Positions 10,836 through 48,322 of a stretch of 64,000 nt of DNA are shown here, one piece after another. The DNA comes from Plasmopara viticola (taxonomy: Eukaryota; Oomycota; Peronosporomycetes; Peronosporales; Peronosporaceae): the NCBI GenBank assembly GCA_001695595.3, contig MBPM02000090.1, forward strand, positions 1 through 64,000. Reading direction: 5' to 3'. The first letter of the stretch is position 1. Every line of letters starts with the position of its first letter. The notes below the pieces were generated by a model. That model saw only the letters and a program-made list of their open reading frames with translations, had not been told where the DNA came from and searched no databases. The translations under genes were made by a program, and so were the position numbers.

Positions 10836-11259
10836 TTTCTCAGACAATTATAACAAAACTCGTTCATCTCGCCCTCAGCAATCGTGAGCAGTGTGTCTAA
10901 TAATTTCATTGCTCTGTTTATGCGTTATCAATAATACACTATCATACCTTTATCACGGCGTAAGATAAAATGTAGACCACTTTTAGCTAGCTTGACTAGT
11001 AGAGGGATACACCCGAGATACTTCCGTCTCTATTAGCATTTTACTTTATCGGTGGTGCCCTTTTAAGCGTATCTACTTTTGAAGCTCCCGACTTCTCCGC
11101 TAAAGTCAGAATTAAGCGCGAGGTTATCAGCAAAACTCGGGCTCCCCATAAAACCCAATTAAGTATACTTAGGCCATAGCGATGGCGTGCAGACTGTTTC
11201 GTGTGATGGCAATGTAGATAGTGTGTTGTCGTCGGCAGCAATTGCCTCTATAGCTCAGT

Positions 11260-11520
11260 TAAAAATTGTCATGTATTTAATTTTAACACAACCTATACCT
11301 TCTCGGCTTGGGTAGGATTTCTACATTTACATTTTTAGTCTGAATATTCTTTTTCGTCTTGTTATCGTCTTATTCTTGATCGGGGTCGGAAATAATTCGC
11401 TTGGGGCCGTCCTCTCCCCAAGTCTGGTTAATCACGAGGTGTGTCCGGTGTGGGACTCGAACCCGCAACATACACCGTGAGGACCAGAACCATAATCCAC
11501 CAACCCACGCCACCGGGTCT
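11260..11520 (-). mobile_element. SINE-like element, copy 1, inside a tRNA-Thr gene
   Basis: This 261-bp insertion splits a tRNA-Thr gene. The stub with tRNA nt 1-16 lies at 11,244-11,259 and a full gene restarts at 11,521. Read on the minus strand, the right end is a tRNA-like head with an A-box-like TGGCGTGGGTTGG (11,500-11,512) and a perfect B box GGTTCGAGTCC (11,453-11,463). The body and an A/T-rich tail follow, with the 3' end at 11,260. The head does not fold into a clean cloverleaf, so I treat it as a Pol III promoter of a SINE rather than a working tRNA. It encodes no protein. Copy 1 shares the CCGGTGTGGG variant and the AAATC downstream tRNA with copy 6. Confidence 0.82.
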
Positions 11521-11592
11521 GCCCCTATAGCTCAGTGGTAGAGCACCCGCTTAGTAAGCGGAAAATCGGTAGTTCAATCCTGCCTGGGGGCA
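11521..11592 (+). tRNA. tRNA-Thr (AGT), rebuilt after SINE copy 1
   Basis: Complete 72-nt gene whose first 16 nt are the target duplication. The variable region is AAATC instead of AGGTC. The usual 5' flank is replaced by the SINE 5' end. Confidence 0.9.
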
Positions 11593-12000
11593 TTTCTCAG
11601 ACAATTATAACAAAACTCGTTCATCTCGCCCTCAGCAATCGTGAGCAGTGTGTCTAATAATTTCATTGCTCTGTTTATGCGTTATCAATAATACACTATC
11701 ATACCTTTATTACGGCGTAAGATAAAATATAGACCACTTTTAGCTAGCTTGACTAGTAGAGGGATACACCCGAGATACTTCCGTCTCTATTAGCATTTTA
11801 CTTTATCGGTGGTGCCCTTTTAAGCGTATCTACTTTTGAAGCTCCCGACTTCTCCGATAAAGTCAGAACAATAGCGCGAGGTAATCAGCAAAATTCGGGC
11901 TCCCCATGAACCCAATTAAGTATACCCAGGCCATAGCGATGGCGTGCAGAATGTTTCGTGTGATGGCACTATAGATACTGTGTTGTCGTCGGCAGCAATT

Positions 12001-12072
12001 GCCCCTATAGCTCAGTGGTAGAGCACCCGCTTAGTAAGCGGAAGGTCGGTAGTTCAATCCTGCCTTGGGGCA
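12001..12072 (+). tRNA. tRNA-Thr (AGT)
   Basis: Consensus except TTGGGGC on the 3' acceptor strand. Confidence 0.88.
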
Positions 12073-12480
12073 TTTCTCAGACAATTATAACAAAACTCGT
12101 TCATCTCGCCCTCAGCAATCGTGAGAAGTGTGTCTAATAATTTCATTGCTCTGTTGATGCGTTATCAAAAATACCCTATTATACCTTCAATACGGGGTAA
12201 GATAGATATAGACCACTTTTAGCTAGCTTGACTAGTAGAGGGATACACCCGAGATACTTCCGTCTCTATTATCATTTTACTTTATCGGTGGTGCCCTATT
12301 AAGCGTACCTCCTTTTGAAACTCCCGATTTCTCCGATAAAGTTAGAACTATAGCGGTAAGTTACCAGCAAAATTCGGGCTCCCCATAAAACCCAATTAAG
12401 TATACCCAGGCCATAGCGATGGCGTGCAGACTGTTTCGTGTGATGGCAATGTAGATAGTATGTTGTCGTCGGCAGCAATT

Positions 12481-12552
12481 GCTTCTATAGCTCAGTGGTA
12501 GAGCACCCGCTTAGTAAGCGGAAGGTCGGTAGTTCAATCCTGCCTGGGGGCA
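12481..12552 (+). tRNA. tRNA-Thr (AGT)
   Basis: C3 and C4 are both T; T-G pairs keep the acceptor stem. Same at 14,669. Confidence 0.85.
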
Positions 12553-12976
12553 TTTCTCAGACAATTATAACAAAACTCGTTCATCTCGCCCTCAGCAATC
12601 GTGAGCAGTGTGTCTAATAATTTCATTGCTCTGTTTATGCGTTATCAATAATGCACTATCATACCTTTATCACGGCGTAAGATAAAATGTAGACCACTTT
12701 TAGCTAGCTTGACTAGTAGAGGGATACACCCGAGATACTTCCGTATCTATTAGCATTTAACTTTATCGGTGGTGCCCTTTTAAGCGTATCTACTTTTGAA
12801 GCTCCCGACTTCTCCGCTAAAGTCAGAACTAAGCGCGAGGTTATCAGCAAAACTCGGGCTCCCCATAAAACCCAATCAAGTATACTTAGGCCATAGCGAT
12901 GGCGTGCAGACTGTTTCGTGTGATGGCAATGTAGATAGTGTGTTGTCGTCGGCAGCAATTGCCTCTATAGCTCAGT

Positions 12977-13235
12977 TAAAAATTGTCATGTATTTAATTT
13001 TAACACAACCTATACCTTCTCGGCTTGGGTAGGATTTCTACATTTCATTTTTAGTCTGAATATTCTTTTTCGTCTTGTTATCGTCTTATTCTTGATCGGG
13101 GTCGGAAATAATTCGCTTGGGGCCGTCCTCTCCCAAGTCTGGTTAATCACGAAGTTTGTCCGGGGTGGGACTCGAACCCGCAACATACACCGTGAGGACC
13201 AGAACCATAATCCACCAACCCACGCCACCGGGTCT
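12977..13235 (-). mobile_element. SINE-like element, copy 2, inside a tRNA-Thr gene
   Basis: A 259-bp copy at the same tRNA nucleotide as copy 1, with the left stub at 12,961-12,976. Its A and B boxes are intact on the minus strand. Together with its flanks it is nearly identical to copy 3, 2.19 kb downstream, so one was made from the other by segmental duplication rather than by a new insertion. Confidence 0.82.
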
Positions 13236-13307
13236 GCCCCTATAGCTCAGTGGTAGAGCACCCGCTTAGTGAGCGGAAGGTCGGTAGTTCAATCCTGCCT
13301 GGGGGCA
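13236..13307 (+). tRNA. tRNA-Thr (AGT), rebuilt after SINE copy 2
   Basis: Complete gene with A37 to G. The downstream flank reads TAGCTCAGAC instead of TTTCTCAGAC, a variant shared with the genes after SINE copies 3, 4 and 5. Confidence 0.88.
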
Positions 13308-13715: not shown

Positions 13716-13787
13716 GCCCCTATAGCTCAGTGGCAGAGCACTCGCTTAGTAAGCGGAAGGTCGGTAGTTCAATCCTGCCTGGGGGCA
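13716..13787 (+). tRNA. tRNA-Thr (AGT), variant
   Basis: D loop GGCA instead of GGTA, and anticodon stem CTCGC (T-G pair). The same subtype recurs at 15,905 and 19,715. Confidence 0.83.
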
Positions 13788-15164: not shown

Positions 15165-15424
15165 TAAAAATTGTCATGTATTTAATTTTAACACAACCTA
15201 TACCTTCTCGGCTTGGGTAGGATTTCTACATTTTCATTTTTAGTCTGAATATTCTTTTTCGTCTTGTTATCGTCTTATTCTTGATCGGGGTCGGAAATAA
15301 TTCGCTTGGGGCCGTCCTCTCCCCAAGTCTGGTTAATCACGAAGTTTGTCCGGGGTGGGACTCGAACCCGCAACATACACCGTGAGGACCAGAACCATAA
15401 TCCACCAACCCACGCCACCGGTCT
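15165..15424 (-). mobile_element. SINE-like element, copy 3, inside a tRNA-Thr gene
   Basis: A 260-bp copy with the left stub at 15,149-15,164. Both Pol III boxes are intact on the minus strand. It is part of the 2.19-kb duplication that also holds copy 2. Confidence 0.82.
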
Positions 15425-24505: not shown

Positions 24506-24766
24506 TAAAAATTGTCATGTATTCAATTTTAACACAACCTATACCTTCTCGGCTTGGGTAGGATTTCTACATTTACATTTTTAGTCTGAATATTCTTTTT
24601 CGTCTTGTTATCGTCTTATTCTTGATCGGGGTCGGAAATAATTCGCTTGGGGCCGTCCTCTCCCCAAGTCTCGTTAATCACGAGGTTTGTCCGGGGTGGG
24701 ACTCGAACCCGCAACATACACCGTGAGGACCAGAACCATAATCCACCAACCCATGCCACCGGGTCT
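24506..24766 (-). mobile_element. SINE-like element, copy 4, inside a tRNA-Thr gene
   Basis: A 261-bp copy with the left stub at 24,490-24,505. A and B boxes are intact on the minus strand. It shares an ACCCATGCC head variant with copy 5. Confidence 0.82.
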
Positions 24767-25736: not shown

Positions 25737-25997
25737 TAAAAATTGTCATGTATTCAATTTTAACACAACCTATACCTTCTCGGCTTGGGTAGGATTTCTA
25801 CATTTACATTTTTAGTCTGAATATTCTTTTTCGTCTTGTTATCGTCTTATTCTTGATCGGGGTCGGAAATAATTCGCTTGGGGCCGTCCTCTCCCCAAGT
25901 CTCGTTAATCACGAGGTTTGTCCGGGGTGGGACTCGAACCCGCAACATACACCGTGAGGACCAGAACCATAATCCACCAACCCATGCCACCGGGTCT
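25737..25997 (-). mobile_element. SINE-like element, copy 5, inside a tRNA-Thr gene
   Basis: A 261-bp copy with the left stub at 25,721-25,736. It lies 1,231 bp from copy 4 and carries the same head variant and the same downstream units, so the two arose by a local tandem duplication. Confidence 0.82.
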
Positions 25998-29369: not shown

Positions 29370-29630
29370 TAAAAATTGTCATGTATTTAATTTTAACACA
29401 ACCTATACCTTCTCAACTTGGGTAGGATTTCTACATTTACATTTTTAGTCTGAATATTCTTTTTCGTCTTGTTATCGTCTTATTCTTGATCGGGGTCGGA
29501 AATAATTCGCTTGGGGCCGTCCTCTCCCCAAGTCTGGTTAATCACGAGGTTTGTCCGGTGTGGGACTCGAACCCGCAACATACACCGTGAGGACCAGAAC
29601 CATAATCCACCAACCCACGCCACCGGGTCT
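29370..29630 (-). mobile_element. SINE-like element, copy 6, inside a tRNA-Thr gene
   Basis: A 261-bp copy with the left stub at 29,354-29,369. It matches copy 1 in its CCGGTGTGGG variant and in the AAATC tRNA downstream, although the two lie 18.1 kb apart. That points to long-range duplication or conversion inside the array. Confidence 0.82.
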
Positions 29631-30660: not shown

Positions 30661-31085
30661 TTTCTCAGACAATTATAACAAAACTCGTTCATCTCGCCCT
30701 CAGCAATCGTGAGCAGTGTGTCTAAAAATTTCATTGCTCTGTTTATGCGTTATCCATAATACACTATTATAGCTTTATTACGGCGTAAGATAATATATAG
30801 ACCACTTTTAGCTAGCTTGACTAGTAGAGGGATACACCCAAGATACTTCCGTCTCTATTAGCATTTTCCTTTATCGGTGGTGCCCTTTACACGAACCTAC
30901 TTTTGAAACCTATCGACTTCTCCGATAAAGTTAGAACTATAGCGCGAAGTTATCAGCAAAATTCGGGCTCCTCATAAAACCCAAGTAAGTATACCCAGGC
31001 CATAGCGATGGCGTGCAGACTGTTTCGTGTGATGGCAATGTAGATAGTGTGTTGTCGTCGCCAGCAATTGGCCCTTTGGCTCAGT

Positions 31086-32147
31086 TGAAGTTCGTCTATA
31101 TTTAGTATAATATGACAAATGACTACCCAACTTGTCTGGCGGAATATCTGTTCTAAACTTTTCTAGTGTACACAAATTTTATGTAATTCCCTTGAGGTAG
31201 GAAAATACATAAATTTTGTGTTCTCCCTAATTTTTTAATATCCAATCACCGGCGTGAAAGGGTTTCGGCTTTACACTTTTGCCCCCGTTTTGACTTCAAC
31301 TTTGGCCAAAAATGGCGATTCAGACCGCTTACGCGTGACATCATTTCTTGTCAACTGTGACCATTTAGCATCTGCAACTTTGGGTACGTATGCAGCACAT
31401 ACACCGCCCATTACATGCTGATTGCTTACGCATACGGAGACCCCTGGTGCTCAAACAAAGATCCGGTCTTTCAGCTCACTGTCGCGTCGTTTCGCGACGG
31501 CGTGGCTTTCGTGGGCCAACACATAGCCGGGATCGGGTTTTGACTATATACTGTAAGTCAAAAATATCTGGCTTGTCAGGGCTTATAAGAAACTAAAATC
31601 CTGGGCTCTCCTGCCCAATAGGAAAAAATAAAAAAAGCCTGGCCTCTTTGTTCTCGCAGATAGGATGGCCTCTCAGGCCCACAAGTGATACAAAATCACT
31701 GGCTTTACAGCTCGCAGGCTTCACAAGAATACGGAAAGCCCCGGCTTCTCAGGGCTCACGCGAAACAAAACACCTGGCCTCTGCACCAAGCCGTCCACTC
31801 ACTGCTTCCCGGCAGGCGCCACGTTCTTCGGCCTCTAACATGGCTAGCACGCTTCTGCATCCCCCTCCGGCGCGTCGAAGAGCTTCATCAAGACCAAGGC
31901 CTCCAGCGTCAAACTTCAGAGCCCCCCAAGTGATGTAGATTCATCCGTTATGGCGACCTGCAGGCTGCCCGATCAGGTAGCATCGACGGAGCGGGCGACT
32001 GATCGTAATCATCTATAGTGAAGTCAAAGCTTGTCGACATTAACGGTGTTTCTTCCATAGCCAGTGGCTTCTCTTTCCTGTGCCCACAGGTCTTGATGTT
32101 GCTTGCTTCGTTGGTCAGAGCTCGAATTTTGCACTTGAGTGATGCCT
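31086..32147 (-). mobile_element. LINE 3' fragment, copy 1 (1,062 bp), in a tRNA-Thr gene
   Basis: This is the 3' end of the same LINE family as LINE A, matching 35,129-36,185 closely. On the minus strand the element 3' end is at 31,086, next to the decayed tRNA stub GCCCTTTGGCTCAGT (31,071-31,085). The 5' end is cut at GATGCC, after which a tRNA gene restarts at 32,148. No intact protein is encoded; overlapping frames on both strands look like shadows. Length and both end points are the same as in fragment 2, so the two are copies of one event. Confidence 0.85.
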
Positions 32148-32208
32148 GCCCCTATATATCAGTGGTAGAGCACCCGCTTAGTAAGCGGAAGGTCGGTTGC
32201 CTGGGGCA
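32148..32208 (+). pseudogene. tRNA-Thr pseudogene (AGT), T loop and B box deleted
   Basis: Ten bases (AGTTCAATCC) are missing, removing the T loop and B box. The A box is also changed (TATATCAG). Same deletion as at 34,167. Confidence 0.75.
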
Positions 32209-32610
32209 TTTCTTAGACAAATATAACAAAACTCGTTCATCTCGCCCTCAGCAATCGTGAGAAGTGTGTCTAATAATTTCATTGCTCTATTTATGCGTTA
32301 TCAATAATACACTATTATACCTTTATTGCTTTTGGCGTAAGAAGAAATATAGACCACTTTTAGCTAGCTTGACTAGTAGAGGGATACGCCCGAGATACTT
32401 CCGTCTCTATTAGCATTTTTTTGCCCTTTAAAGCGAACATCCATTTGAAACTCCCGACTTCTCCGATAAAGTCAGAACTATAGCGCGAAGTTATCAGCAA
32501 AATTCGGGCTCCTCATAAAACCCAAATAAGTATACCCCGGCAGTAGCGATGGCGTGCAGACTGTTTCGTGTGATGGCAATGTAGGTAGTGTGTTGTCGTC
32601 GGCAGCAATT

Positions 32611-33104: not shown

Positions 33105-34166
33105 TGAAGTTCGTCTATATTCAGTATAATATGACAAATGACTACCCAACTTGTCTGGCGGAATATCTGTTCTAAACTTTTCTAGTGTACTCAAATTTTG
33201 TGTAATTCCCTTGAGGTAGGAAAATACATAAATTTTGTGTTCTCCCTAATTTTTTTAATATCCAATCACCGGCGTGAAAGGGTTTCGACTTTACACTTTT
33301 GCCCTCGATTTGACTTCAACTTTGGCCAAAAATGGCGATTCAGACCGCTTACGCGTGACATCATTTCTTTTCAACTGTGACCATGTAGCAGCTGCAACTT
33401 TGGGCATATATGCAGCACATACAGCACCCATTGCATGCTGATTGCTTACGCGTACCGAGACCCCTGGTGCTCAAAAAAACATTCGGCCTTTCAGCTCACT
33501 GTCGCGTCGTTTCGCGACGGCGTGGCTTTCGTGGGCCAACCCATAGACGGGATCGGATTTTGACTATATACTGTAAGTCAAAAATATCTGGCTTGTCAGG
33601 GCTTATAAGAAACTAAAATCCTGGCCTCTCCTGCCCAATAGGAAAAATAAAAAAACCCTGGCCTCTTTGTTCTCGCAGATAGGATGGCCTCTCAGGCCCA
33701 CAAGTGATACAAAATCACTGGCCTTACAGCTCGCAGGCTTCACAAGAATACGGAAAGCCCCGGCTTCTCCGGGCTCACGCGAAACAAAACACCTGGCCTC
33801 TGCACCAAGCCGTCCACTCAGTGCTGCCCGGCAGGCGCCACGTTCTCCGGCCTCTAACATGGCTAGCACGCTTCTGCATCCCCCTCCGGCGCGTCGAAGA
33901 GCTTCATCAAGATCAAGGCCTCCAGCGTCAAACTTCAGAGCCCCCCAAGTGATGTAGGTTCACCCGTTATGGCGACCTGCAGGCTGCCCGATCAGGTAGC
34001 ATCGACGGAGCGGGCGACAGATCGTAATCATCTATAATGAAGTCAAAGCTTGTCGACATTAACGGTGTTTCTTCCATAGCCAGTGGCTTTTCTTTCCTGT
34101 GTCCACAGGTCTTGATGTTGCTTGCTTCGTTGGTCAGAGCTCGAATTTTGCACTTGAGTGATGCCT
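33105..34166 (-). mobile_element. LINE 3' fragment, copy 2 (1,062 bp), in a tRNA-Thr gene
   Basis: Same element portion and end points as the fragment at 31,086, about 2.02 kb downstream, with an intact tRNA stub at 33,089-33,104 (GCCCCTATAGCTCAGT). The left flank contains the private variant GTCGCCAGCA shared with fragment 1 and with LINE A. All three left junctions therefore seem to descend from one insertion that was then duplicated. Confidence 0.85.
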
Positions 34167-34228
34167 GCCCCTATAGCTCAGTGGTAGAGCACCCGCTTAG
34201 TAAGCGGAAGGTCGGTTGCCTGGGGGCA
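34167..34228 (+). pseudogene. tRNA-Thr pseudogene (AGT), T loop and B box deleted
   Basis: Carries the 10-base T-loop deletion seen at 32,148, while the A box is intact here. Confidence 0.75.
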
Positions 34229-34635
34229 TTTCTTAGACAAATATTACAAAACTCGTTCATCTCGCCCTCAGCAATCGTGAGCAGTGTGTCTAATAATTTC
34301 ATTGCTCTGTTTATGCGTTATCAATAATACACTATTATACCTTTATTGCGGCGTAAGATAAAATATAGACCACTTTTAGCTAGCTTGACTAGTAGAGGGA
34401 TACGCCCGAGATACTCCCGTCTCTATTAGCACTTTTCTTTATCGGTGGTGCCCTTTAAGCGTACGTACTTTTGAAGCTCCCGACTTCTCCGATTAAGTCA
34501 GAATTAAGCGCGAGGTTATCAGCAAAATTCAGGCTACCCATAAAGCCCAAGTAAGTATACCCCGGCCATAGCGATGGCGTGCAAACTGTTTCGTGTGATG
34601 GCAATGTAGATAGTATGTTGTCGTCGGCAGCAATT

Positions 34636-34704: not shown

Positions 34705-36289
34705 TTTCTCAGACAATTATAACAAAACTCGTTCATCTCGCCCTCAGCAATCGTGAGCAGTGTGTCTAAAAATTTCATTGCTCTGTTTATGCGTTATCCA
34801 TAGTACACTATTATAGCTTTATTACGGCGTAAGATGAAATATAGACCACTTTTAGCTAGCTTGACTAGTAGAGGGATACACCCAAGATACTTCCGTCTCT
34901 ATTAGTATTTTCCTTTATCGGTGGTGCCCTTTACACGAACCTACTTTTGAAACTCCCGACTTCTCCGATAAAGTGAGAACTATAGCGCGAAGTTATCAGC
35001 AAATTTCGGGCTCCTCATAAAACCCAAGTAAGTATACCCAGGCCATAGCGATGGCGTGCAGACCGTTTCGTGTGATGGCAATGTAGATAGTGTGTTGTCG
35101 TCGCCAGCAGTTGCCCCTATAGCTCAGTTGAAGTTCGTCTATATTTAGTATAATATGACAAATGACTATCCAACTTGTCTGGCGGAATATCTGTTCTAAA
35201 CTTTTTAGTGTACACAAATTTTATGTAATTCCCTTGAGGTAGGAAAATACATAAATTTTGTGTTCTCCCAAATTTTTTAATATCCAATCACCGGCGTGAA
35301 AGGGTTTCGGCTTTACACTTTTGCCCCCGATTTGACTTCAACTTTGGCCAAAAATGGCGATTCAGACCGTTTTCGCTTGACATCATTTCTTGTCAACTGT
35401 GACCATTTAGCAGCTGCAACTTTGGGCACATATGCAGCACATACAGCGCCCATTGCATGCTGATTGCTTACGCGTACCGAGACCCCTGGTGCTCAAACAA
35501 ACATTCGATCTTTCAGCTCACTGTCGCGTCGTTTCGCGACGGCGTGGCTTTCGTGGGCCAACCCATAGCCGGGATCGGGTTTTGACTATATACTGTAAGT
35601 CACGAATATCTGGCTTGTCAGGGCTTATAAGAAACTAAAATCCTGGCCTCTCCTGCCCAATAGGAAAAATAAAAAAGCCTGGCCTCTTTGTTCTCGCAGA
35701 TAGGATGGTCTCTCCGGCCCACAAGTGATACAAAATCACTGGCCTTACAGCTCGCAGGCTTCACAAGAATACGGAAAGCCCCGGCTTCTCCGGGCTCACG
35801 CGAAACAAAACACCTGGCCTCTGCACCAAGCCGTCCACTCACTGCTGCCCGGCAGGCGCCACGTTCTTCGGCCTCTAACATGGCTAGCACGCTTCTGCAT
35901 CCCCCTCCGGCGCGTCGAAGAGCTTCATCAAGATCAAGGCCTCCAGCGTCAAAGTTCAGAGCCTCTCAAGTGATGTAGATTCACCCGTTAGGGCGACCTG
36001 CGGGCTGCCCGATCAGGTAGCATCGACAGAGCGGGCGACAGATCTTAATAATCTGTAATAAGGTCAAAGCTTGTCGATATTAACGGTGTTTCTTCCATAG
36101 CCAGTGGCTTTTCTTTCCTGTGTGCACAGGTCTTGATGTTGCTTGCTTCGCTGGTCAGAGCTCGGATTTTGCACTTAAGTGATGCCTGGGTGTTGGCCAG
36201 TGAAGTCGCAAGCATTGTGTGGGTCCACAGCAATTCGATCGATTGCTGTAGAGCTTGACTCAGCACTTTCAAAACGGCTCACTCCGATT

Positions 36290-37587
36290 TCAGTAGACAT
36301 CACCGGCAGCAAAAACTTTGGCCGTTACACCCAAAGACATGTGTTCGAAGTTCTTATAAATCAAAAGTTGGCTGCTTGTAAGCTTGACTACATCCGAAAA
36401 ACGAACTTGGAATAAGGCAGGGTGCTCGCGGATGAATTTTCCCACCGAAGCTGTGGACAAGAACCTTCGAAGCACCTGACGAAGCCGGTCGCGCTGAGCT
36501 AAATCGTACTTGCGGCGCAGGATCCCCTAATATGGGCACTGAAGACTGTGTAGATGACACGCAGAGCTGGTGATACTGGCATAGGAGAACGAGTATCAAA
36601 TAGCCAGCCATTCCGCTCAGTCCAGAGAAAGTGTAAGACCACTGCTCGTGTAATATGCCACATATCGAGAACCTGACTGACGTGATCTTGATCTTCATCT
36701 CGTAGCGGAGGCTTCCTTCCAATCGCAATGTCGATCCAAGTAGGTGCGCGTTTAAAGCAAGGATACCAGTCACGAAAAACGACTTCCCAGACTTCACGTG
36801 CAAGGGAGTACTCAAAGAAGAAGTGTCGCTCTGTCTCAACCGCGGTTTAGCCATCGCGAACGCAAAAAATCGCGTTTGGGTCCTCACTGAGGAAAATAAA
36901 ACGAGACCGAACAGGAAGAAGTCGGAAAGCAAGACGAAACTGAAAGTCTTCGTAGATGGGAAGCAACATACCACGCAAGTGTTTCCTCAGCTTGACAGAC
37001 TTCTTGACATCTTCTGGTTGCCCACAAGAGTCGTGCAGCTGGATCGGGTGATAATGTACTGCTTGGACGGGCTTAGAGACAAGTGACAGGAGTTGCGAAC
37101 GTGACATTAAGGGCACAAGACGGAGGCGATCATTGACACGCACACCAGCGTACGGCATGCTGGATCGGCAATCTGTTGGAACTGTTGTGTCAATGCAAAG
37201 TCAGCAAATTGCCATAACACGCTGAAAAACCTGACTCACTTCTTTGTGCAAGCGTATAAGCCACATGAGCTGCTTATATGCAGAGACCACAGGGTACGAA
37301 TAGTCAATGTGTGCCTCAGCGAAAGCACGAGCTGTACTCCGAACACCCGTCGTATTTACAAAGTCAACAAGCGAACGCAGTCCAAAAGCACTGGCTATGT
37401 GGCGTCGAAATCCGCGCTGGGGCTCAGCGATCATGCTGATGCTGCGGCGTGGACTCGTTTCACCGTGACACCGAGCAGATGGTTCGAACTGGAATACCGG
37501 ATCACCATGACACCAGATGGGCTGATGCAACGCGTAGCAAAATCGTTCGTCCGAATTGAGGTCAATCCACGTAACCGGCCACTTCAC
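36290..37587 (-). pseudogene. LINE A reverse transcriptase C-terminal part, frameshifted
   Basis: Three overlapping frames continue the reverse transcriptase. The first (37,587-37,201) begins MKWPVTWIDLNSDERFCY and shares the LHQPIW-type block with LINE B. The second (37,158-36,847) contains FQFRLAFRLLPVRSRF and a CVRDG knuckle, typical of the zinc-binding region downstream of LINE reverse transcriptases (zf-RVT). The third continues to 36,290. Frame changes and stops show it is dead. The assignment rests on order and on matches with LINE B. Confidence 0.6.
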
Positions 37588-37593
37588 ACCGTA

Positions 37594-39018
37594 CTACAGC
37601 TTCCATGCTGACCGCCACCACGTCGACAGAAAACGGTGCCTTAGAACACCATGTCGATGCGGACTGACAGACAAGAAGTCGAGATGTTGCCGTAGTCCCC
37701 AATCTGGAAGAACAGACAAAAGTAGTACGCCTGGGGTTGTCCAGTTGCATACGGCTGGATCCGCCGCCGCGATGAACTGTTGGAGAAACTGGAGATATTG
37801 TCGATTCACCAGAGCTTCAAGCCTTGGGATCTGGAGTCCGCCGTCATTGCCCTTCCTCCGCAAAAAGTCATTCGGTATCAACTGGAAGGTCCTTGCTGAG
37901 CGCTCATAACGCCTATTCAATACAAATCGGTGGAGTGCTGCTTGCCATTTTTTCAGCGTGTGTTTTGGCGCGGTTACGAGCCTTTTAAATTGCCACAGCC
38001 AAGAGGACCATCGTCTGCGCGATGAGAAGCCGACCGTGCAGAGTGAGTGCCCGCCGGAACCAAAGTTTAAAACATCATAAAAACGAGTGTCGAGCGCTTC
38101 CAGCATCTGATCTTTTGTGACGCGTTGACCAAAAAGGAAGCCGAGATACCTTACTGTGTTACCATAGCCAAGAACTCGAACGTCTGGGATCGCTAAGAAA
38201 GAACGGGCACGATGAAGGCTCATCAATACGCCCTTGGGCCGATTGAGATTCGCTCCCGACCATTGACTGTACTCTTTAACGAGGTCGAGCTGTGCTTGAA
38301 TGCCTGCGATCGAGCCCGAGAGCAAGGTGGAATCGTCCGCAAAAAAGATGCTCGTAATTGTGAAATCGTCAGACAATGGGACGCCGTGTTCTTCATGTTG
38401 GCGGAGCAAGTTACCGAGGGGATCGATCACCAAAAGAAATAGCAACGCAGACAGAGGATCACCCTGCTTTACGCCGCGAGATGGATATAGGCCTTCAAGG
38501 ATATGACCGTTGACAATCAGATGTGCTTGTGGCTTCGTGTGCACGAGCTTAACCCACTCGGAGTATGTACCACCGCAACCCATACGGTCTAGTACTTGGA
38601 ACATGTAGCTCCAGTTGACACGGTCATACGCCTTTTCAAAGTCGAGGAACGTCGCATACGCTTCGTTGTCACGGGCCGTCACCAGATCTTGAAGATCTTG
38701 AAGAAACCGCACGTGGTGGTGCAGTGACCGTCCCTTGACAATCGCCTTCTGATTTGGATGAACAAGCTTGGACAAGAATGATTGGAGTCGAAAAGCAAGC
38801 ACCTTTGTCAAAGCCTTGACATCAACACCCATGAGAGTAATTGGACGAGTCAGCGTGTCGGGGTTGTAGGTATTTTTAAGTGTCTTCCTCACACCTTCAA
38901 TGCAAACGTCTGCTACAGTCAGGTGATTCGGTCGAAGCTGGAGATCTGCCGTCTCTTCGTCGTCCTTCATCTCATCGACGATCTCCTGGATCATCATCGG
39001 CTTCGGCGATTTAGACAC
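37594..39018 (-). pseudogene. LINE A reverse transcriptase core, L1/Tx1-like
   Basis: A 474-residue open frame with the main reverse transcriptase motifs: RPITLMGVDVKALTKVLAFRL (res 58-78), NQKAIVKGR (89-97), LDFEKAYDRVNW (125-136; catalytic Asp), RGVKQGDPLSALLF (181-194) and FFADDSTLL (225-233; catalytic Asp pair). This set fits APE-type L1/Tx1-like elements. The first residue shown is not a natural start: in-frame coding continues upstream through SSHFFVKKHTKV, which matches LINE B residues of the ORF1 end. The ORF1 tail is thus fused directly to reverse transcriptase by an internal deletion, so no endonuclease is present. It retains all visible catalytic residues. Confidence 0.85.
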
Positions 39019-39428
39019 CTTTGTGTGTTTTTTTACGAAGAAATGCGACGACTCCGAGCTATTTTCGATCGCTTCCGGGACCTTTACCTAGGGAGGGACG
39101 ATCTGGTTGCGAGTGAGACTACCCTCCGCGAGCATACCTGGCGAGCAGTCAAACTAGACTTCAACCGAGTTCAGCACATCGTAATAATTGCTTGTGGCAA
39201 GCTTCTGGGCCGGTGCTGGTTAAGTGCTCTTTAACACAGAGCCGAAGGTCTTCTCAGCACGGCGGCGCTTGGCCTTGTTCTCCCTACTAACCACGGCTTC
39301 AGAGCTAGCCAAACTTAGCGCTGGCGCCGGTGTAGGCAGCCGTTTCGGAGGCAGAAGGCGTAGCGCATGCCTTGGACTACCAGGAGGAAGGACGAAGGAG
39401 CCGGCATGAGTGTCAAGTGAGAGTACAC

Positions 39429-40433
39429 TCACCACGTCTTCTTTCTTCGGCCCAATCTCACTTGCCACAGTACCCAACCCCTTAACGACGTCGACATACG
39501 ACGAACCAGACGGTTTTGCCGGCGAAGCGGACGATGTGACTTCACCGATGTGGTCGGGTTGAGCGCGTGCGGCGACCTCTGACCGAACCCAAGACGTTGG
39601 GACAGAAAAGCAGCGTTACGGCCCTGGGCTGGATACTGTGAGCAGTTGAATATGATCTGCTCAAAAACTTTGCCGTCGACGACGACGGCCTTTGGTGGCG
39701 TTGACGAGCGAAAATAAACACGCCATGTTGCCGTTGTGAGGCCCGACTGAATGTTGACGTCGCGGAAGGTGCAATAAATTGGTTTTGCGCCCATCTGGAA
39801 AAATTGTTCCATGAGGGAGGCGTGCGAGAAGACGCTATCGACACCCGAGATGTCGAGGTAGTACCTGTCCGCAAGGATTTTTAAATCCGAGAACGTAAAA
39901 GTGTGGCCGAGAATACGGACGGGCTGTCGAGCAAGTCCCGCACATGTCTTTCGGTCTTTTACACGCACCCACAGCTCACCGGCCCGGCCCTTAGAGATCT
40001 GGCCGATCTGGCAGTCGTTGACTTGCGCTTGAATCACCGGTTTGTCGTTGTTATTAAGAAACGGCGTCGCAATCTTGTAGATGCCAGTACGCTGGAACGT
40101 TTGGCCGGTTTTGACGGTCATCAAGTACCGCGTCTTAGGTAGCTTGTACGCCCGAGCGCGCTCAATTGGCGACCACAGCTGACTTCACTCTACTCCCTTC
40201 TCGTAGAGTGTGTCGATGGTCTCAAAATCGAGCGCAGACGGTTGAGGCGTTATCAGTACACCCAAGTTCCGGGACCGTGGCAACGCGGTGTCACGGCGAA
40301 TCTCGTCGTCTTGGGCTAGTAGCGCAAAGAGCGACAAATTTGACACCGCTGTCGCATTCATCGGGTGTTCACTAGTCATAATCGTATCATTTGAGGCATT
40401 ATTGTTGCTGGATCTGCCGACAGCAAGAAGCAC
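39429..40433 (-). pseudogene. LINE A ORF1-like protein, one internal stop
   Basis: Frames 40,433-40,185 and 40,124-39,429 are in the same reading frame, separated by one TGA. LINE B has Trp (RGWSF) at the matching place, so this looks like TGG to TGA. The protein contains DRYYLDISGVDS, GAKPIYCTFRDV and TATWRVYF blocks, all matched in LINE B. The function is inferred only from position upstream of the polymerase, where RNA-binding ORF1 proteins lie. No gag-type zinc knuckle is seen. A different frame continues to 39,220. Confidence 0.65.
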
Positions 40434-40858
40434 GTCAGTACTTCCAAAAAAGCATTGTCATATTACTGCCCACATAAACGGCTTGTGAAGCGTCTCCGTC
40501 ACCAGAGGATGGCTGGTTATTAGACTTGATCAGGCCGCTGACGCCACCATGATGGGTGGTGGCGCATCTGTCGAACAAGTGGTTGCGGAAATCCCATGGC
40601 TAGGGACATCTGTTACCACAGACCCGTTTGCAACAAGTGTCGCAGCATTCGGTTTAGCGGGTGAAGAGTCACCGTGGAATCGACCCATCTTCGTCGGTAA
40701 GAAGACGGAACCGGGCGTGGGAGCGGATGGGTTCGCACCATCATCGCCATCTCACAGGAATGTAGGAGGTGAGGGTCGGCCTGGTACATTGGACTCAGTC
40801 TGGGGTACTTCTGTTTTTGACTGGATTGACTTGTGCTCAACGAGGCAAATTGGGAAGT

Positions 40859-40930
40859 GCCTCTATAGCTCAGTCGTAGAGCACCCGCTTAGAAAGCGGA
40901 AGGTCGGTAGTTCAATCCTGCCTGGGGGCA
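40859..40930 (+). tRNA. tRNA-Thr body with AGA anticodon, after LINE A
   Basis: Complete 72-nt gene starting at the LINE A 5' end. The loop is TTAGAAA, so the anticodon is AGA (serine UCU codons) on a threonine tRNA body without the long variable arm of tRNA-Ser. C4 to T and a D-loop GG to CG change are also present. Probably not a working Thr or Ser tRNA. Confidence 0.72.
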
Positions 40931-41858
40931 TTTCTCAGACAATTATAACAAACTCGGTCATCTCGCCCTCAGCAATCGTGAGCAGTGAGTCTAATAATTT
41001 CATTACTCTGTTTATGCGTTAGCAATAATACACTATTATACCTTTTTTACGGCGCAAGATGAAATATAGACCACTTTTAGCTAGCTTGACGAGTAGAGGG
41101 ATACACCCGAGATACTTTCGTCTCTATTAGCATTTTTCTTTATCGGTGAAGCATACTTTCTTTTGAAACTCCCGACTTCTCCGATAAATTCAGAATTATA
41201 GCGTGAAGTTATCAGCAAAATTCGGGCTTCTCATAAAACCCAAATAAGTATACCCAGGCCATAGCGATGGCGTGCAGACTGTTTCGTGTGATGGCAATGT
41301 AAATAGTGTGTTGTCGTCGGCAGCGATTGCCCCTATAGCTCAGTCGAAAGTTTGTCTATATTATGAATAATTTAGACGATGTGACTTCTCAATTGTACCT
41401 AGCTATAAGGATACACCATAAATACTAATATACAGTCTAATTAGTACTTGAACAAATGAAGTTGTCGATGCAGCATTGGTGTTTTCAAGAATTTGCTTGG
41501 CACACCAATATGGTGTAAGCCACAAAAAATGTGGTCCACTTGTGTATGCGCTTGTGGAGGTTCTGAGGCAATCTTAATATGATGCTTGAAAGGTCTTCAA
41601 AAGATACATTTATAAATTTGACCGGTATAGAGTGTCGTCGAAAGGTTGTACGTAAATTTTTGTGGTCGAGAAAGCTCTCATTCCCAAATTTGCCAAAAAA
41701 AAACCAGATGTACCCAAAAAATGGTACATTTTATGGGCCCGATGGAGGTACCAAAAAGTTATACATTTTGGGGTCCAGACTTGGTTTGCTGGTCTGACCT
41801 CCTTTTTTTAAAGAAAGCCAGCTACCGCGCTTGAGGAGAACCCCAACCTGATGGAAGG

Positions 41859-42180
41859 AAAGGAGTGTGTGCGATCTGATTTCGTTGAAGCTGTCCCGGC
41901 TCCTTCCCTCCTCAGTGAGGAAAGCTCGGGACCTCGCAATGGGTCCGCTGGTAATGGCGCTGGTTCTGTGCTCGAAGAAGGAACCCTATTGGCGGAGATT
42001 TCGGAGTGTGTTCGGTCCGATTCCGTTGAAGCGGCCACGGCTACGACCCTCCAAGGTGTGGGTATTCTGAAGCGTGTGCAGAATCGGCTAGGACTAGCGG
42101 TGCGAGGGAGGAAGAGTCCCTACGGTTGGGGTACGGAGTGTGTGCGGTCTGACCCCGTTAGAGCTGCCACGGCTCCGCTC
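41859..42180. repeat. Three spaced ~40-bp direct repeats in the LINE B 3' region
   Basis: A block beginning GGAGTGTGTKCGRTCYGA and ending in CGGCTMC-type sequence occurs at about 41,861, 42,004 and 42,135, spaced roughly 130-143 bp. It lies in the 3' untranslated part of LINE B. The open + strand frame across it is a by-product of the repeats. Such 3' repeats are common in LINE tails; a role in recognition by the element's own enzyme is only a guess. Confidence 0.6.
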
Positions 42181-44216
42181 CTGACCGAACACTGGTAATA
42201 TCCGGTTGTCGGTTTGTGAAGTCACCGAATGCTGAATGAGTCTTCATCACTTCGAGCACTCGCTGTAGATTGCGATTCTCTGCTTGATCGTATAACCGCC
42301 GTGGAAGAACCGAACTTGCGCGCATAACGTCGAGAAGATCACCGCGAGCGCCGGAGCTGTTGGTGTCGACTGTCTTCCGTCGAACAGGCACCTGTTGCGA
42401 TCCGACCAGATCGTGTGCAGCGTCGCACCTCGGAGAACGTGCCACACGTCGCGCACCACGTCGGCGCCCTCGTCCTACGCTCCGCGGAGGCGCAGCTTGT
42501 TCCCGAGAGCGATGTCAAGTCAGACAGAGCGAGAGACGAAGAACGGCGAGACAAGTATTAAGACCTGCCGCCACGCCTGCGATGCTGGCATGCAGTCGAA
42601 GAACAGGTGTTGCTCCGTCTCGATGGCTTGGCAGCCATCGCGAACACAGATTCGGATATCTGGACGTGATACTTCCAGAAATCAAAAGCGTTAGCGCACG
42701 GAAAGCAGCCAAAACGCGAGTCGGAACTGCAAGTAATCGACGACCGGCAGCAAGACCTTGCTCAGTCTCCTGCCGTGCTTGGCGAATGCCTTGATCTGCT
42801 GCTCGTCGACACGCTGAGAGAAGATTTTCATCGGATGGGGCTTGCTCGGAAGCTGGGGTGTCCAGACGACTTGCAATAGCGCCGATTCCGGGATCGCCGG
42901 AACTAAGCACGTCCTTGTGCCGCTTGTACATCCCAAGCGCGGAAGCAGACTCCTCGATCTAGCGTTTGACGAGTCTCGCACCAGCTGCAGTGCACCAAGT
43001 CGATCCACAATCTGCGTTGCCTCGCGATGCAGCGCACGGAGTCATTTTGCCTGTACCCCCGGTAGAACCGATACGAATGTGAAGTCGAGGTGGCGCTGGA
43101 CAAACTCATCACAAGTCGACCACGCCTCACCCTCGTGTCGGAATTCAGCAAGCTACCACAGGCCGAATACGCGCGAGACATGCAGACGAAAGCTGCGCTG
43201 TGGCTTGGGAACCATCCCGAGACACCGTCGATGCGCTGCTGTCGTTGCTGTCCGCATGGTCTTCTCATAGTGCAGCTCTGCATCTGCGTGGAACCAGATC
43301 GGCTGATTTATACCATACATCGCGCGCTCGTTTGGAGGCAGGTCGCGCCACGTGATCTCCCAGCGCGCCTTGTACCACCACATGCCGACACTCGACCCCA
43401 TCTGATGAGCTTGCCGTGTCGAAGTGGAGAGATCGTGAGAAAGTCCAGCGCATTGCATCTGGCGTTTTAAGGAATCACGGATGTCAGTAGCTCGACGCTC
43501 GCCTTTCCCAGTTCCTCTCATGCGTCGCACTCGCCACGCTCGTGAACTGCAGCAGTAGGGTGAGACGTTGACGCTTAAGCTGGGCATCAAGCTTTGGAAT
43601 CCCCAATCCACCGTCGCTGCGCTGCTGGTGCAAGAACTCATTCGGGATGAGCTGCACACGCTTTGTATCGCGGTCGTGCTTGCGGCGCAAGACGAAACGG
43701 TTGAGCATCGACTGCCAGCGGCGCATCACTGTCGCTGGAATCGGAACATGCTGTGTGTAGTGCGACTGGTATGAGCACGATCGGCCGGTGGTTGCTAGGC
43801 TCGGCGCGTGAGCCCTTTTTGTGTAGTAGCACGAGTGCCGACTTGCGCTGAGACGCCATGAGCTCGCCAAGTCGGAGTCGGTCTGAGAACACAATCGCCA
43901 AGCACTCGCCGAACAGATCTGGCGACACCTGGTAGAAGCCAGCGGTCAAGCCATCCATCCCCGACGATGACGTCGTCTTCATATGCTTGATCGCACCTGC
44001 GAGGTCTGCTGCTGTTAATTCAGCGTCAAGCATTTCGCGGTCAGAGTTCGAGACGAAGCACAAAACTGAGTCAAGAAGCTTGCGCTGCATGGCGTCATCG
44101 GGTGGAGAAACTCTTACTGTCGGACTGTCGAGGTCTTCCATCTCGGACGTCCAGTGCTCTAGGAAACGGAGCGAGATCTCGTGAGGGTTCATCGAGACAT
44201 CTCCACTCGGTGTCAC
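42158..44216 (-). pseudogene. LINE B reverse transcriptase remnant, catalytic core deleted
   Basis: The frame 44,216-43,638 holds the N-terminal reverse transcriptase region: SSSGMDGLTAGFY, SQRKSALVLLHKKGSR and NHRPIVLIP (motif 1). It then runs into sequence from far downstream: 43,894-43,484 carries WQSMLNRFVLRRKH and NEFLHQQRSDGGLGIP, matching the post-core part of LINE A. The segment that should contain the catalytic Asp and FADD box is missing. The C-terminal region continues in shifted frames (43,659-43,153 with NQPIWFHAD; 43,008-42,691 with LQFRLAFWLLSVR; 42,459-42,247 with WSDRNRCLFDG). Confidence 0.75.
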
Positions 44217-44341
44217 AACTTCCTCGATCGAGACTCATCGCAAGCTCGTGTCCAGTGGAATGAAGGAGTGTTTAGTGGACTTTTCGAAGTTGGCGGCTTA
44301 GAAGTCAAACGCAGTATCTTGGTTGTACTGGCTCGTCTGCG

Positions 44342-45400
44342 TCATGTCTCCTTATAGTTGCTCATGGCTTCGTCAAAGAGCTCGCGGTTGTTTTTACTCG
44401 ACAACACACGGAACCTTGCGGCAGCTTGGTCCAGCGCGATGCGGGAGTCTCCTATGGCTTGTGAGTCCTGCTGTCGAAGCTTCTTTTGTATGCCTTGTAG
44501 CTGCTTCCTGATGCTCGCCTTCCACTGCTCCCAGAATTTTCCCGGGATCTCCACTTCGCGCAGCTGATCACGTACCATCTCGGCTTCCTTCTCCATCGCC
44601 GAAACGACCAGTGGGAAGTCTAGCAGATATCGTGGGAACTTCCAGTATCCGCGACCGTGAGGCTGTGTGCCGGAGCAGAGCGAGATGCTGTGCGCAAGGT
44701 AGTCGCCGGCGTGCTTGGAAAAGAAGTACTGGGACTTGTCGTAGAAGCGGTCACAGAACCGTTCCGACATCAAGATGTAGTCCAGCCGGTTCTTCCGTGG
44801 AAGCGGACCGGTGAATACGCGCTCAGTGACGTTGTGGATCCGCCAAGCGTCGACGACACCAAGATTCGCGAGTCACTCCAGACAGCAGGAGCGACTTGAG
44901 TCGTAGCGCAGATCGGGCTTTGAGCTGTCTAGCGGATCGAGCGGCGTGTTCAGGTCTCCGAGCACGAAGTGCGTCGCGTCATCCTCAAACTCATCGGTCG
45001 ACAGACTCATGAAGAACTGTTGCTTCTCTTGGCGATCAACTGTCGCATACACGTTGTGAATGTAGACGGGAGCAGGCTCGACCATCACTTCCACGACGAG
45101 GGACCTGCCTGACACTGACAGGCGCGATATCTCAGCAGCCGTGTCGAAGCCTGGGAAGTCGGAGCGTAACAACGTCAAGACTCCGTTGCATCGACCGCGC
45201 GTGGGTCAATCCAGCAACGCGTTTGGATCGTTGACGAAGGCTTTGTGCGTAAAGCTCGAGTCGAGGTGGAAATTGAAGGTTGAGAGGTGTTGTGCGTCGC
45301 CGAATTTGGTTTCTTGGACGCACGGCACCGAATGTTTGGAGAGTAGGTTGACAATGAAGAGGTGGCCGTTCTTCTTGATGCCATTGGTGTTTACGGTCAT
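44342..45400 (-). pseudogene. LINE B APE-type endonuclease and linker, with stops
   Basis: Three segments share one frame: 45,400-45,206, 45,178-44,873 and 44,773-44,342. Together they show NTNGIKKNG (N-terminal Asn), QETKF (metal-binding Glu), YIHNVYA, LGDLN (Asp/Asn), RKNRLDYILMS and a late LAHS (His), the usual order of the apurinic-like endonuclease of L1/Tx1 elements. GRGYWKFPRYLL and a charged linker follow. The two breaks between segments are TGA codons, one where family members have Trp (CLE-stop-LANLGVVDAW). The enzyme of this family would be the best candidate for cutting the tRNA-Thr gene; this copy is dead. Confidence 0.75.
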
Positions 45401-46552
45401 CAGAGAGACGGTATTCCATGCGTGCTGTGCAGCCGGGGCAACTTAAGCAACGGGTGGACAAGCTGCCCGCAACTGTCATTGCTGGGCCATCAGCATCCGC
45501 GCAGACCTTCAGTACCGACGAGTCAACCGGATAGTAGCCATCCAGCTGACGCAGCGCCTCCAGATCGTCGAGCATGTGACCTTGCCACTGTACTTCACGC
45601 CACTGTTGCATGCAGTGTGAACTAAGGTCCGACCGCAGCAGTCGCAGCAGCGTGTTCGGGTGCATGAAATGCATGTGGTGCGCCGAAATCCACTCAACAG
45701 GCTGACCCGTGAAATACTGGACCCAATGATCGTTCATAAACAATGTCGGCGCGATCGACATGAGCGCGAGCTCGAGCATGCCAAGCGCCTTGGACGCGCG
45801 CGATAGTTCTGTGATCGTGTCTGTGTGGGTCCACCACTTGGCACACTCCTTGAAAATGTCTTGACGCTTCGAAAGTATCGACATCCCCATGACGCAATTC
45901 CACTTCGTCATGACTGTTGTGTCTTCGTCAGGTACCTTGCGCATAACACACAATTGATTGCGTGAAGCTGCGCAAGCTTTTCGATCGGCCTGCCGTCACC
46001 ATCCATCACGAGTGACAGCGCGCTGTTAAGCGCGAGTGGATAGGCAGCGGCCGACATTACGATATGGTCGGGGTTTGTCACGTTCTCGTTGAGCTCCACC
46101 ATACCAATAATCTTTGCGTCTACTTCTGCGAGACGGTCCGGGAGAATGTTGAGCAATGCTGTGTTCTCATGGTTGATGATCGAATCGGTCACCTCAAGTA
46201 TCGGCGGCGCCTTATCTGCCTTCTTGATCTTTGTGTGGTGCTTCTCGACGAAGAACTTCGACTCCGCTGCGGTCGTCACCGCCTCGGGACGCTTCACATT
46301 GGTTGGCACGACCTGCTTGCGCACGCCGTGCTTCTTGTTCGCGGTGGCATTTTTGATAACGAGATCGACTTCCATAGACTGGAGTGCTTCGAAGTAGTTC
46401 GCAGTCGCGACGCCATTGGGAGGCTGCGGTTGCTGCTTCGTGAGCAGAGCAGTGAAGTCGCTGCGTCTGCACCTCCTTTTATTCTGGACTGTCGAAAAAC
46501 GTCCGAATTGTCTCCATTCATTAAGAGCAAGAGCGGAGCTTTTGTCTTACCT
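45401..46552 (-). pseudogene. LINE B ORF1 tail region, frameshifted
   Basis: Frames 46,375-45,908 and 45,953-45,400 join across a frame change near 45,930 (HAINCV against CVMRKVPDED). The start (VVPTNVKRPEAV, ESKFFVEKHHTKIKK) is matched in LINE A just before its deletion point; the rest is absent from LINE A. No known domain is recognised. Confidence 0.5.
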
Positions 46553-47878
46553 TAAGGACTACCGGGAGGAGAAAACTTGCCTCTGGATCCTATGAACGTT
46601 GAGATCGACAGAGCATCGTCTTGGGTGCTTGGGATCTTTGCAAGCTGGTTGGTGCCAGGAGGCGAGCCATGCGGAGCTTCGTCCTGAAGCTTCCCATTGC
46701 GTTTCTCGGACTTCTCAACTGCCTTCTGCAGCGAGGTCATTCGCTTGCCGTTCGTCGCCGCTTGCGCAGGAATCATCGGCATAGCTTGCTGCTGCTTCGT
46801 GGGTTGCTTTGATGTCTGCGACGACAACGATTCGGCCGGGGGAATCGGACGCGGGAAGACTTTGTCACTTGTGAGTAGGTCGATGCCGTGGAGCGAGCGA
46901 AAACCATATGGCAGATGCTCGGACTGATACGGTGCGCTCTTGCCGTGAGCTGGGTGCAGTTTGTTGTGGGACAGAATCAGGTCACATACCGAGCCGTTCA
47001 CCAACAGCGGCTGTGGGCACGTGTTCGAGAGGAAGTACACTCGCCACGTCGCCGAAGTGATGCCGGTCGCCATGTTCACCTAGCGAAACGTGTCATAGAT
47101 CGGCTTGCACCCAAGGATGAAAAGCCGAAACAGGATCGTATCCGTGTTGGTGTCCGAATCGACGGTGGAGATGTCGAGGAAGTACTTTCCTGCAAGGACG
47201 TCGAACTCCTTGAACAAGAATACATCGCCCAAGATGTTCACCTTCGTGCGCTCGAGCTTGAGGCAGGCTTCCTTTATCTTGATCTTCACGTGTAAGTTCC
47301 TGCCAGGGAGTTGACACTTGGCCGATTGCGTGCTCGCTGTACAGTTTCTCAAGCGCGTCGTTCCCGTGGTGCGAACCAGTCAGCGACGCCATGCTCTTCT
47401 GCAGTGGAGTCTTCGCGAAAGTGCGTCCCGTGTGGATGACCATGTCGTTACGCGCGCGGGGCAATTCGTATGGCCGCGCTTGCTCCATCTGTGATGCGAT
47501 GAACGACCAGCCACGTCCAGCAGCGTATTGGCGCTCGATCGACTCGACATCACATGCAAGCGGTTTTGGTGTCTCGTTACGGTTTCGCTTCGCTTCGACT
47601 TTGGCTTCGTCGCGACGGATGGTCTCCTGCTCTCGCAGCAGTGCGGCCATCGTCGGATGCGTGTCGTCAAGTGTAGTCGACGCTTTATCATTCGGAGGCG
47701 GATCCATCAGCTCGTCATCGTGATCTGCGGTCATTAACGTGCCGGGGGCGACAGTGTTGGCGGGAGCATGAACAACACCAGACACGGCAGCAGCAGCAGC
47801 GACGGTGGAGACAGCATCGAGAGGCGCATCCATCGGCTCGTCGCTCGAGTCTTTGAGCACGGGTGCAGGCGGCTTCAA
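46552..47878 (-). pseudogene. LINE B ORF1-like protein, frameshift and TAG stop
   Basis: Frame 47,878-47,093 covers an acidic, Pro/Ala-rich N-terminus and then AAGRGWSFIASQMEQARPYE. The following part lies in another frame (47,352-46,552) with GKYFLDISTVDS and CKPIYDTFR, a TAG stop, then ATWRVYFLSNT. These blocks correspond one to one with LINE A ORF1. The Ala-rich stretch with several GCA/GCT codons near 47,780 is low complexity. Confidence 0.62.
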
Positions 47879-48251
47879 AGCGCGGACAAAGGAGGCGACA
47901 AAGGTATGAGAGGCGATGGTGGCGCAGCTGGACGGGTGGCTGACGAGGAGTCGTCAGAGAATTCAGAGCTAGCCGGAGAATCCAAGGGAGATGAGCTTCC
48001 CGCGTTACCCAGATTGCTGGGTGCCAACTGGATTCTTGGTGCAGAAACAGGGGAAGAGCCAGCTGCGTTACGCGACGATTGGACGGTGGATGGTGCAGAG
48101 GCCTTGGGAAGAAGGGAAGAAGGGTTGCGGCAGATTCTGCGGCTTGAATTTCCATCTGTACTGACGAGAGAGCGAAAGGTGGCTAAAGAAGGGGAAAGGG
48201 TTGGGTTCTTCTAAAGTGTCGACTTATGGGGCTGCCGGCACATTGAGAAGT

Positions 48252-48322
48252 GCCGCTATAGCTCAGTGGTAGAGCACCGCTTAGAAAGCGGAAGGTCGGT
48301 AGTTCAATCCTGCCTGGGGGCA
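48252..48322 (+). tRNA. tRNA-Thr body with AGA anticodon, after LINE B
   Basis: A 71-nt gene starting at the LINE B 5' end. Anticodon loop TTAGAAA (AGA), acceptor GCCGCTA (one mismatch) and one C lost in the anticodon stem. It is the last tRNA of the array. Confidence 0.62.

Follow-up and report, generated by a model that had tools for sequence, protein, structure and literature searches.

In the oomycete Plasmopara viticola, two families of long interspersed nuclear elements (LINEs) and a short interspersed nuclear element (SINE) lie antisense at one and the same position of the A box, a promoter motif that many tRNA genes have in common, in at least 13 tRNA types. Target-primed reverse transcription very probably placed them there, using an endonuclease of the apurinic/apyrimidinic (AP) type that is encoded by the LINEs and predicted to nick (T)RGCTCA/RTNGG. 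The elements are described here from a stretch of 64,000 nt (positions 1 to 64,000 of contig MBPM02000090.1, assembly GCA_001695595.3; hereafter the window) and from a search of the assembly, which comprises 92,937,831 bases in 358 contigs (C-numbers denote contigs and L-numbers loci).

The window carries on its forward strand, at positions 1-35116, a tandem array of ~477-480 bp units with one tRNA-Thr(AGT) gene per unit. Many of the target sites are empty, and the empty site AATTGCCNCTATAGCTCAGTGGTAG occurs in 28 exact copies in the window. The 12-mer CTATAGCTCAGT has 60 matches in the window, where 0.01 would be expected, and 645 genome-wide, against 13 for the reversed pattern. An earlier note on this DNA had placed ten junctions at one tRNA-Thr site, all antisense, and the window sequence bears this out: all ten are present, at the same base of tRNA-Thr(AGT). 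Six SINE copies, all on the reverse strand, occupy 11260-11519, 12977-13234, 15165-15423, 24506-24765, 25737-25996 (identical to the copy before it) and 29370-29629, and begin after positions 11259, 12976, 15164, 24505, 25736 and 29369. Two LINE fragments of ~1,061 bp each (31086-32146 and 33105-34165, reverse strand) join after 31085 and 33104, LINE A (35129-40857, reverse strand) after 35128, and LINE B (41345-48250, reverse strand) after 41344. The fragment is related to LINE A and truncated at its 5' end, so that the four element types counted in that note become three.

Exact CTATAGCTCAGT is found at nine of these ten junctions with the element directly after it in tRNA orientation; the exception is CTTTGGCTCAGT at 31074-31085. 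Beyond the element the tRNA gene restarts, as TGCCYCTATAGCTCAGT in eight right flanks and as TGCCCCTATATATCAGT in one LINE fragment copy, and each insertion therefore carries a target duplication, which the earlier note had overlooked. The duplicated stretch starts in the array one base ahead of G1 of the tRNA gene, and the two target copies of the first SINE lie at 11243-11257 and 11520-11534.

Flanks were surveyed genome-wide with queries made of element sequence only. Scored rows, taken from longer candidate lists, numbered 41 for the SINE, 41 for LINE-A and 52 for LINE-B, and a pattern search for 3' ends with up to three mismatches found 166 SINE, 20 LINE-B-type and 24 LINE-A-type ends. 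SINE flanks were read at 69 of at least 166 loci, namely the 30 best rows of the sequence search (six of them from the window) and 39 of the first 100 pattern places, which were picked by contig, 37 of them before their flanks were known. All 40 LINE-A-type ends were included, together with 24 LINE-B-type ends (23 of the 24 from the sequence search and one from the pattern search). This gave 131 readable flanks, 68 for the SINE, 40 for the LINE-A family and 23 for the LINE-B family; as arrays make many of them related, 131 junctions are not 131 events. The junction lies at the A-box position, directly after RGCTCA or a near form, in 68/68 SINE, 39/40 LINE-A and 20/23 LINE-B cases, or 127/131 overall, some with one mismatch to RGCTCA. 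An identified tRNA type is hit in 124 of the 127, and the other three (L084, L090, L140) are in A-box-like starts that have no tRNA assignment. Flanks unrelated to any tRNA were found at three of the 131 junctions (L086, L089, L096).

The gene behind the SINE, as called by ARAGORN, belongs to 13 isoacceptors: Thr-AGT, Thr-CGT, Thr-TGT, Tyr-GTA, Ala-CGC, Ala-AGC, Ile-AAT, Ile-TAT, Lys-TTT, Lys-CTT, Met-CAT, Asn-GTT and Phe-GAA. Two of these calls are odd, L136 being called Pro with a Tyr gene body and L115 Ile with a Thr-TGT body. LINE targets, judged mostly from the first 14 bases and the flank, are Thr-AGT, Lys-TTT, Met, Phe, Ile-TAT and one unassigned for the LINE-A type, and Thr-AGT, Thr-CGT, Lys-TTT, Lys-CTT, Met and one unassigned for the LINE-B type. 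Among unassigned LINE target starts, GCTCTCG is that of tRNA-Ile(TAT), and a pattern search for exact empty genes with the starts GCGCGGG and GGGGGAA found none. Compiled by hand, there are at least 25 element-by-tRNA combinations, two of them with an unassigned tRNA, and this is a floor for the number of separate events. GCTCA is common to the tRNAs hit, and GGTAGAGC follows downstream in most. The flank tables, a check that the earlier note had itself asked for, support its proposal of a site-specific non-LTR retrotransposon lineage and of a SINE that enters tRNA genes at the same point; the specificity for tRNA-Thr that went with it does not hold, as the same position is used in at least 13 isoacceptors. 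A further LINE type, outside these counts, occurs at the same A-box site at L006 (C8:1628381) and L129 (C245), with the 3' end GTTTAAAGTTGTCTATATTAATT or GTTAAAGTTGTCTATATTTAGTATTAT. Searching other public collections for the same junction (pattern GCTCAGTTGAARGTTN{0,1}GTCWA) returned one viral and three bacterial contigs, none with a called tRNA, and so no second species is shown.

The tRNA-Ala genes help to delimit the cut. Their native sequence is CTCAAATGG, yet the left junction reads CTCA/GTTGAAA or CTCA/GTTGTAA (L103, L112, L124, L135), and because these junctions deviate from the native sequence the retained tRNA must end at nt 14 or earlier. An end after nt 16, as first described for the window, is one possible reading of the Thr junctions but is later than the Ala copies allow; the next two bases in Thr genes, GT, may be part of the element. 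Counted to nt 14, the exact target duplication is mostly 14-17 bp and starts within ~2 bases of the first base of the tRNA. Shorter or zero values accompany differences between the two copies.

This geometry usually leaves a whole gene behind the SINE. ARAGORN called a tRNA directly behind it in 62/69 loci, and in the window a complete tRNA-Thr(AGT) gene follows the first SINE at 11520-11593 (forward strand), with the same at 13235, 15424, 24766, 25997 and 29630 for the others. Disruption of the gene as a rule is ruled out by these 62 loci and is true of the two LINE fragments, behind which lie tRNA remnants with no B box. In these remnants (32147-32210 and 34166-34230) the B-box region is gone (TAGTTCAATCC), probably through one deletion. 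The far side of LINEs was inspected at a few loci (four in the window, L007 on C8 and L149 on C48). LINE A adjoins with its 5' end the tRNA at 40858-40931, and LINE B is followed by one at 48251-48323, both on the forward strand and both with a Thr body and the anticodon AGA. In both, CTTAGAAAGCGG replaces CTTAGTAAGCGG, and such a Thr-like tRNA would carry a Ser anticodon; since the variant is common to the tRNAs behind LINE A and LINE B, it is perhaps an old variant of the array.

A rebuilt gene can be entered again, and the result is a stack. On C27 two SINEs stand 19 bases apart, and a LINE followed by a SINE precedes tRNA-Lys at L108, L109, L122 and L127 and tRNA-Thr at L004. On C48 three LINEs, read at their ends, follow one another with nothing but TGCTCTCGTAGCTCA separating them, and the series closes at an intact tRNA-Ile(TAT) at 260062. 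From the geometry, the element nearest the gene would be the youngest.

The enzymes of these LINEs point to the L1 group. LINE A has an open frame for a reverse transcriptase (37594-39018, reverse strand; RVT_1, E 5.9e-32), whose best matches among solved structures are 8c8j and human L1 ORF2p (E 5.8e-33 to 7.4e-32), with R2-type entries at 1.7e-12 to 1.4e-10. In LINE B, whose frames are broken, the endonuclease and the region following it (44345-45442, reverse strand) are spread over three separate open pieces (45209-45442, 44876-45205 and 44345-44872). A Pfam scan of these pieces alone found no endonuclease; in pairwise comparison they are 70-77% identical to protein P0018, which contains PF03372 and PF00078. 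P0018 aligns with human L1 ORF2p from the endonuclease to the reverse transcriptase (E 1.4e-50) and with R2 in the reverse transcriptase only (E 5.7e-20). In a tree of 93 reverse transcriptase domains the proteins that group with LINE A are P0001-P0003 (supports 0.90 and 0.99), of which P0002 is from Globisporangium, and all of these sit within a larger group with 15 members (support 0.93), Phytophthora and Peronospora proteins among them; the tree shows nearest relatives only and contains no Tx1 reference sequences. Taken together, the LINE A reverse transcriptase, the relative P0018 and the LINE B pieces show the traits of the L1 group, an AP-type endonuclease upstream of an L1-like reverse transcriptase. 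The elements do not appear to have the character of the NeSL/R2 group, which is a restriction-like endonuclease and no AP endonuclease, although no separate search for a restriction-like domain was made.

The 3' ends of the elements are alike over 12-14 bases, being GACAACTTTCAAC in the SINE, GACAACCTTCAAC in the LINE-A type and GACAAACTTTCAAC in the LINE-B type. A conserved hairpin was considered as evidence of a partnership between LINEs and SINE and was set aside as too weak, since the folds do not stand clearly above shuffles. The SINE head in L112 was called tRNA-Gln(CTG) by ARAGORN, the only such head among the loci scanned, and the Rfam tRNA model gave no match to the SINE heads in L108, L124 and L130. 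The L112 SINE, itself inserted in a tRNA gene, may be tRNA-derived.

What is observed directly is where and in which orientation the elements lie, how many tRNAs they use, the duplication, the complete tRNA gene usually behind the SINE and the stacks; a series of inferred steps could link these. The first nick would hit the sense strand of the tRNA gene, at A14 or immediately before it, and the new 3' end would serve as primer on LINE or SINE RNA, which have similar ends. A second nick just upstream of the tRNA gene would then allow second-strand synthesis to rebuild the gene. With A and B boxes intact, the gene would stay transcribable and the 5' end of the element would become its new upstream flank. 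The SINE, whose head may be tRNA-like, may borrow the LINE machinery through its similar 3' tail, and tandem amplification of tRNA arrays afterwards multiplies some of the insertions.

Such amplification is evident, and raises the question whether all copies descend from a single old insertion that unequal crossing-over or gene conversion carried through the tRNA arrays and from one array to another. Inside arrays this reading is retained. Two of the six window SINEs are identical, and the five distinct ones are 97.6-99.2% alike, compared with a mean of 92.4% to SINEs elsewhere; by sequence the six are probably copies of one event, and the ten window junctions perhaps represent about four. Likewise, C133:64338-96014 contains 19 LINE-A-type rows, 13 of whose 18 spacings are 1,532-1,545 bp and 18 of the 19 have the same 5' truncation as the window fragment; this is a higher-order array in which the ~1,061-bp fragment and a 477-480 bp tRNA unit were amplified together. 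Between arrays the evidence runs the other way. One SINE, identical over 249 bp, is found in Lys-TTT (C233), Ile-AAT (C154) and Ala-CGC (C31), and a second identical pair in Tyr (C55) and Thr-CGT (C166). Each has the 5' flank proper to its own tRNA, as recent separate insertions would be expected to look. The 5' flank and the duplicated start are particular to each tRNA type, the isotypes share no flanking DNA beyond the tRNA in the flanks inspected, and the element families differ by up to ~30%. We therefore judge it highly improbable that spreading explains the whole set, and the reading that all junctions copy one event is excluded by the spread over tRNA types.

Several observations weigh against an endonuclease that finds the A box by itself, and some of them speak for other means of targeting. 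The LINE-B copy of L076 (C211:60343) is inserted at GAGTTCA, within the T arm of a tRNA-Ser gene, the only tRNA insertion off the A box among the junctions inspected, and L086 and L089 are in no recognisable tRNA. L076 favours attraction to tRNA genes as such. Together with the fact that nearly all insertions are in tRNA genes, it fits a model in which TFIIIC or TFIIIB brings the LINE particle to the gene, as with Dictyostelium TRE5, and the endonuclease has only a loose nick preference. We regard such tethering as unlikely to be the main determinant: the position is base-exact and not spread over a window of distances, and a non-tRNA site with A-box-like sequence was used at L096 on C34. There the site is AGGCTCA/GTCTGG (AGGCTCAGTCTGG), no tRNA is called in 251 bases, and 14-17 bases are duplicated, of which three are also found in the element; this favours recognition of A-box-like DNA itself. 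C166, where Thr-CGT genes alternate with Ser-GCT genes that read GGCCGAGTGG and lack GCTCA, speaks in the same direction, as all six SINEs read there, located through element sequence alone, are in Thr-CGT and none in Ser-GCT. This test of DNA sequence against the RNA polymerase III (Pol III) machinery is weak, however. Four C166 loci viewed in full contain 12 Thr genes (four hit, which was the reason for choosing the loci) and eight Ser genes (none hit, with native upstream flanks), and as the eight further Thr genes are just as empty, the Ser control has little power; tRNA-Ser(GCT) is retained as no more than a weak negative control. Tethering and recognition of DNA sequence may also act together.

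A different source of specificity would be the element RNA. Read-through LINE or SINE RNA would carry the antisense A box (UGAGCUA) of its former site, which anneals to the nicked A box, so that annealing and not the endonuclease sets the site. We consider this rather unlikely, although it accords with the base-exact junctions and with the antisense A box that, read in the element's sense direction, comes next to almost all element 3' ends. A further point in its favour, and against the endonuclease, is L111 (C27:127637), a Met-tRNA in which the left copy reads TAGCTCA and the right TGGCTCA; the left copy differs from its own tRNA as A-box copying from RNA would have it, and plain mutation would fit as well. 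At two tRNA-Lys(CTT) loci on C52 (L118, L119) the left target copy is TAGCTCA and the tRNA behind the SINE has TTGCTCA/TTATTCA, which could be due to later mutation or to copying of the A box from element RNA. Later mutation explains L111 and these two left copies equally well. Other points tell against the preferred explanation, an AP-type endonuclease reading the A box, more generally. LINE A shows no endonuclease frame and the frames of LINE B are broken. The exact nick cannot be placed inside the invariant GCTCA, because this motif is common to nearly all targets. The 3'-tail folds are no better or barely better than shuffles (z -0.3 to -2.1, five on the right strand), and 4/10 tRNAs behind the window insertions are damaged or altered. 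Apart from these elements, the window contains a two-copy 222-bp tandem repeat at 50476-50922, outside the array.

Non-LTR retrotransposons aimed at tRNA genes are known from Dictyostelium, where TRE5 and TRE3 belong to L1 elements with an AP endonuclease. TRE5 inserts upstream of the tRNA gene, at 40-54 bp, and TRE3 downstream of it, at 40-150 bp, and TRE5 ORF1 contacts TFIIIB (PMC5911963). The P. viticola elements, in contrast, do not insert at a distance outside the gene: 127/131 readable junctions are base-exact at the A box inside it. LINEs specific for a tRNA gene are also reported, namely NeSL-1_TV (tRNA-Pro), LIN15_SM (tRNA-Arg) and LIN25_SM (tRNA-Glu) (PMC4640811); these are placed among NeSL relatives, in the part of the tree with restriction-like endonucleases, and are named with one tRNA each, whereas the elements here are of AP type and enter many tRNAs. 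Dada transposons (Dada-tY, Dada-tK and Perkinsus Dada-tIA, Dada-tIB and Dada-tY) target TAGCTC, nt 8-13 of the tRNA in the A box, and some lineages use several tRNA types (PMC3706591, PMC8869645). The hexamer is the same as here and would represent convergent target choice. Dada elements have a DDE transposase and 6-7 bp duplications and are not retroelements, whereas we found a reverse transcriptase and duplications mostly of 14-17 bp, which sets the present elements apart from Dada. Site-specific LINEs at small RNA genes further include Utopia, found in oomycetes (PMC4640811), and Keno, both at U2 snRNA, and Dewa in the tRNA-Leu spacer (Keno and Dewa: PMC3706591); their targets differ from ours, and the endonuclease of Utopia is restriction-like. 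Oomycetes are likewise known to have large tRNA arrays (PMC9584435). In the open literature, judged mainly on titles and abstract openings, we recognised no LINE or SINE in an oomycete tRNA A box and found no account of an AP-endonuclease LINE that, together with a SINE, uses the A box in a range of tRNA genes. The earlier note went too far in suggesting that entry within a tRNA gene may be undescribed, since restriction-like-endonuclease LINEs and Dada enter tRNA genes; an AP-endonuclease LINE/SINE set that enters many different tRNA genes at this box appears to be a new variation on such entry.

Site-specific LINEs usually interrupt the gene copy they enter, as R1 and R2 do, or stay outside the gene, as TRE elements do. 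Here the target motif belongs to the promoters of many tRNA genes and the cut geometry returns the gene, so that a host could put up with many insertions, even where a tRNA gene has few copies. Slightly short of an even prospect, in our judgement, is a broader picture in which the A box serves as a docking site across much of the tRNA repertoire and rebuilt genes are permanent, reusable safe harbours with elements ordered by arrival, perhaps guided by a read-through antisense A box. The system makes the question of recognition, by DNA sequence, Pol III factors or RNA annealing, directly testable, and provides a natural experiment in convergence with Dada transposons. Its endonuclease is of possible use for harmless gene placement. 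The flanks of tRNA genes in this genome may record the history of insertion as ordered stacks and, if the enzyme recognises the shared promoter sequence, tRNA genes would be reusable landing sites.

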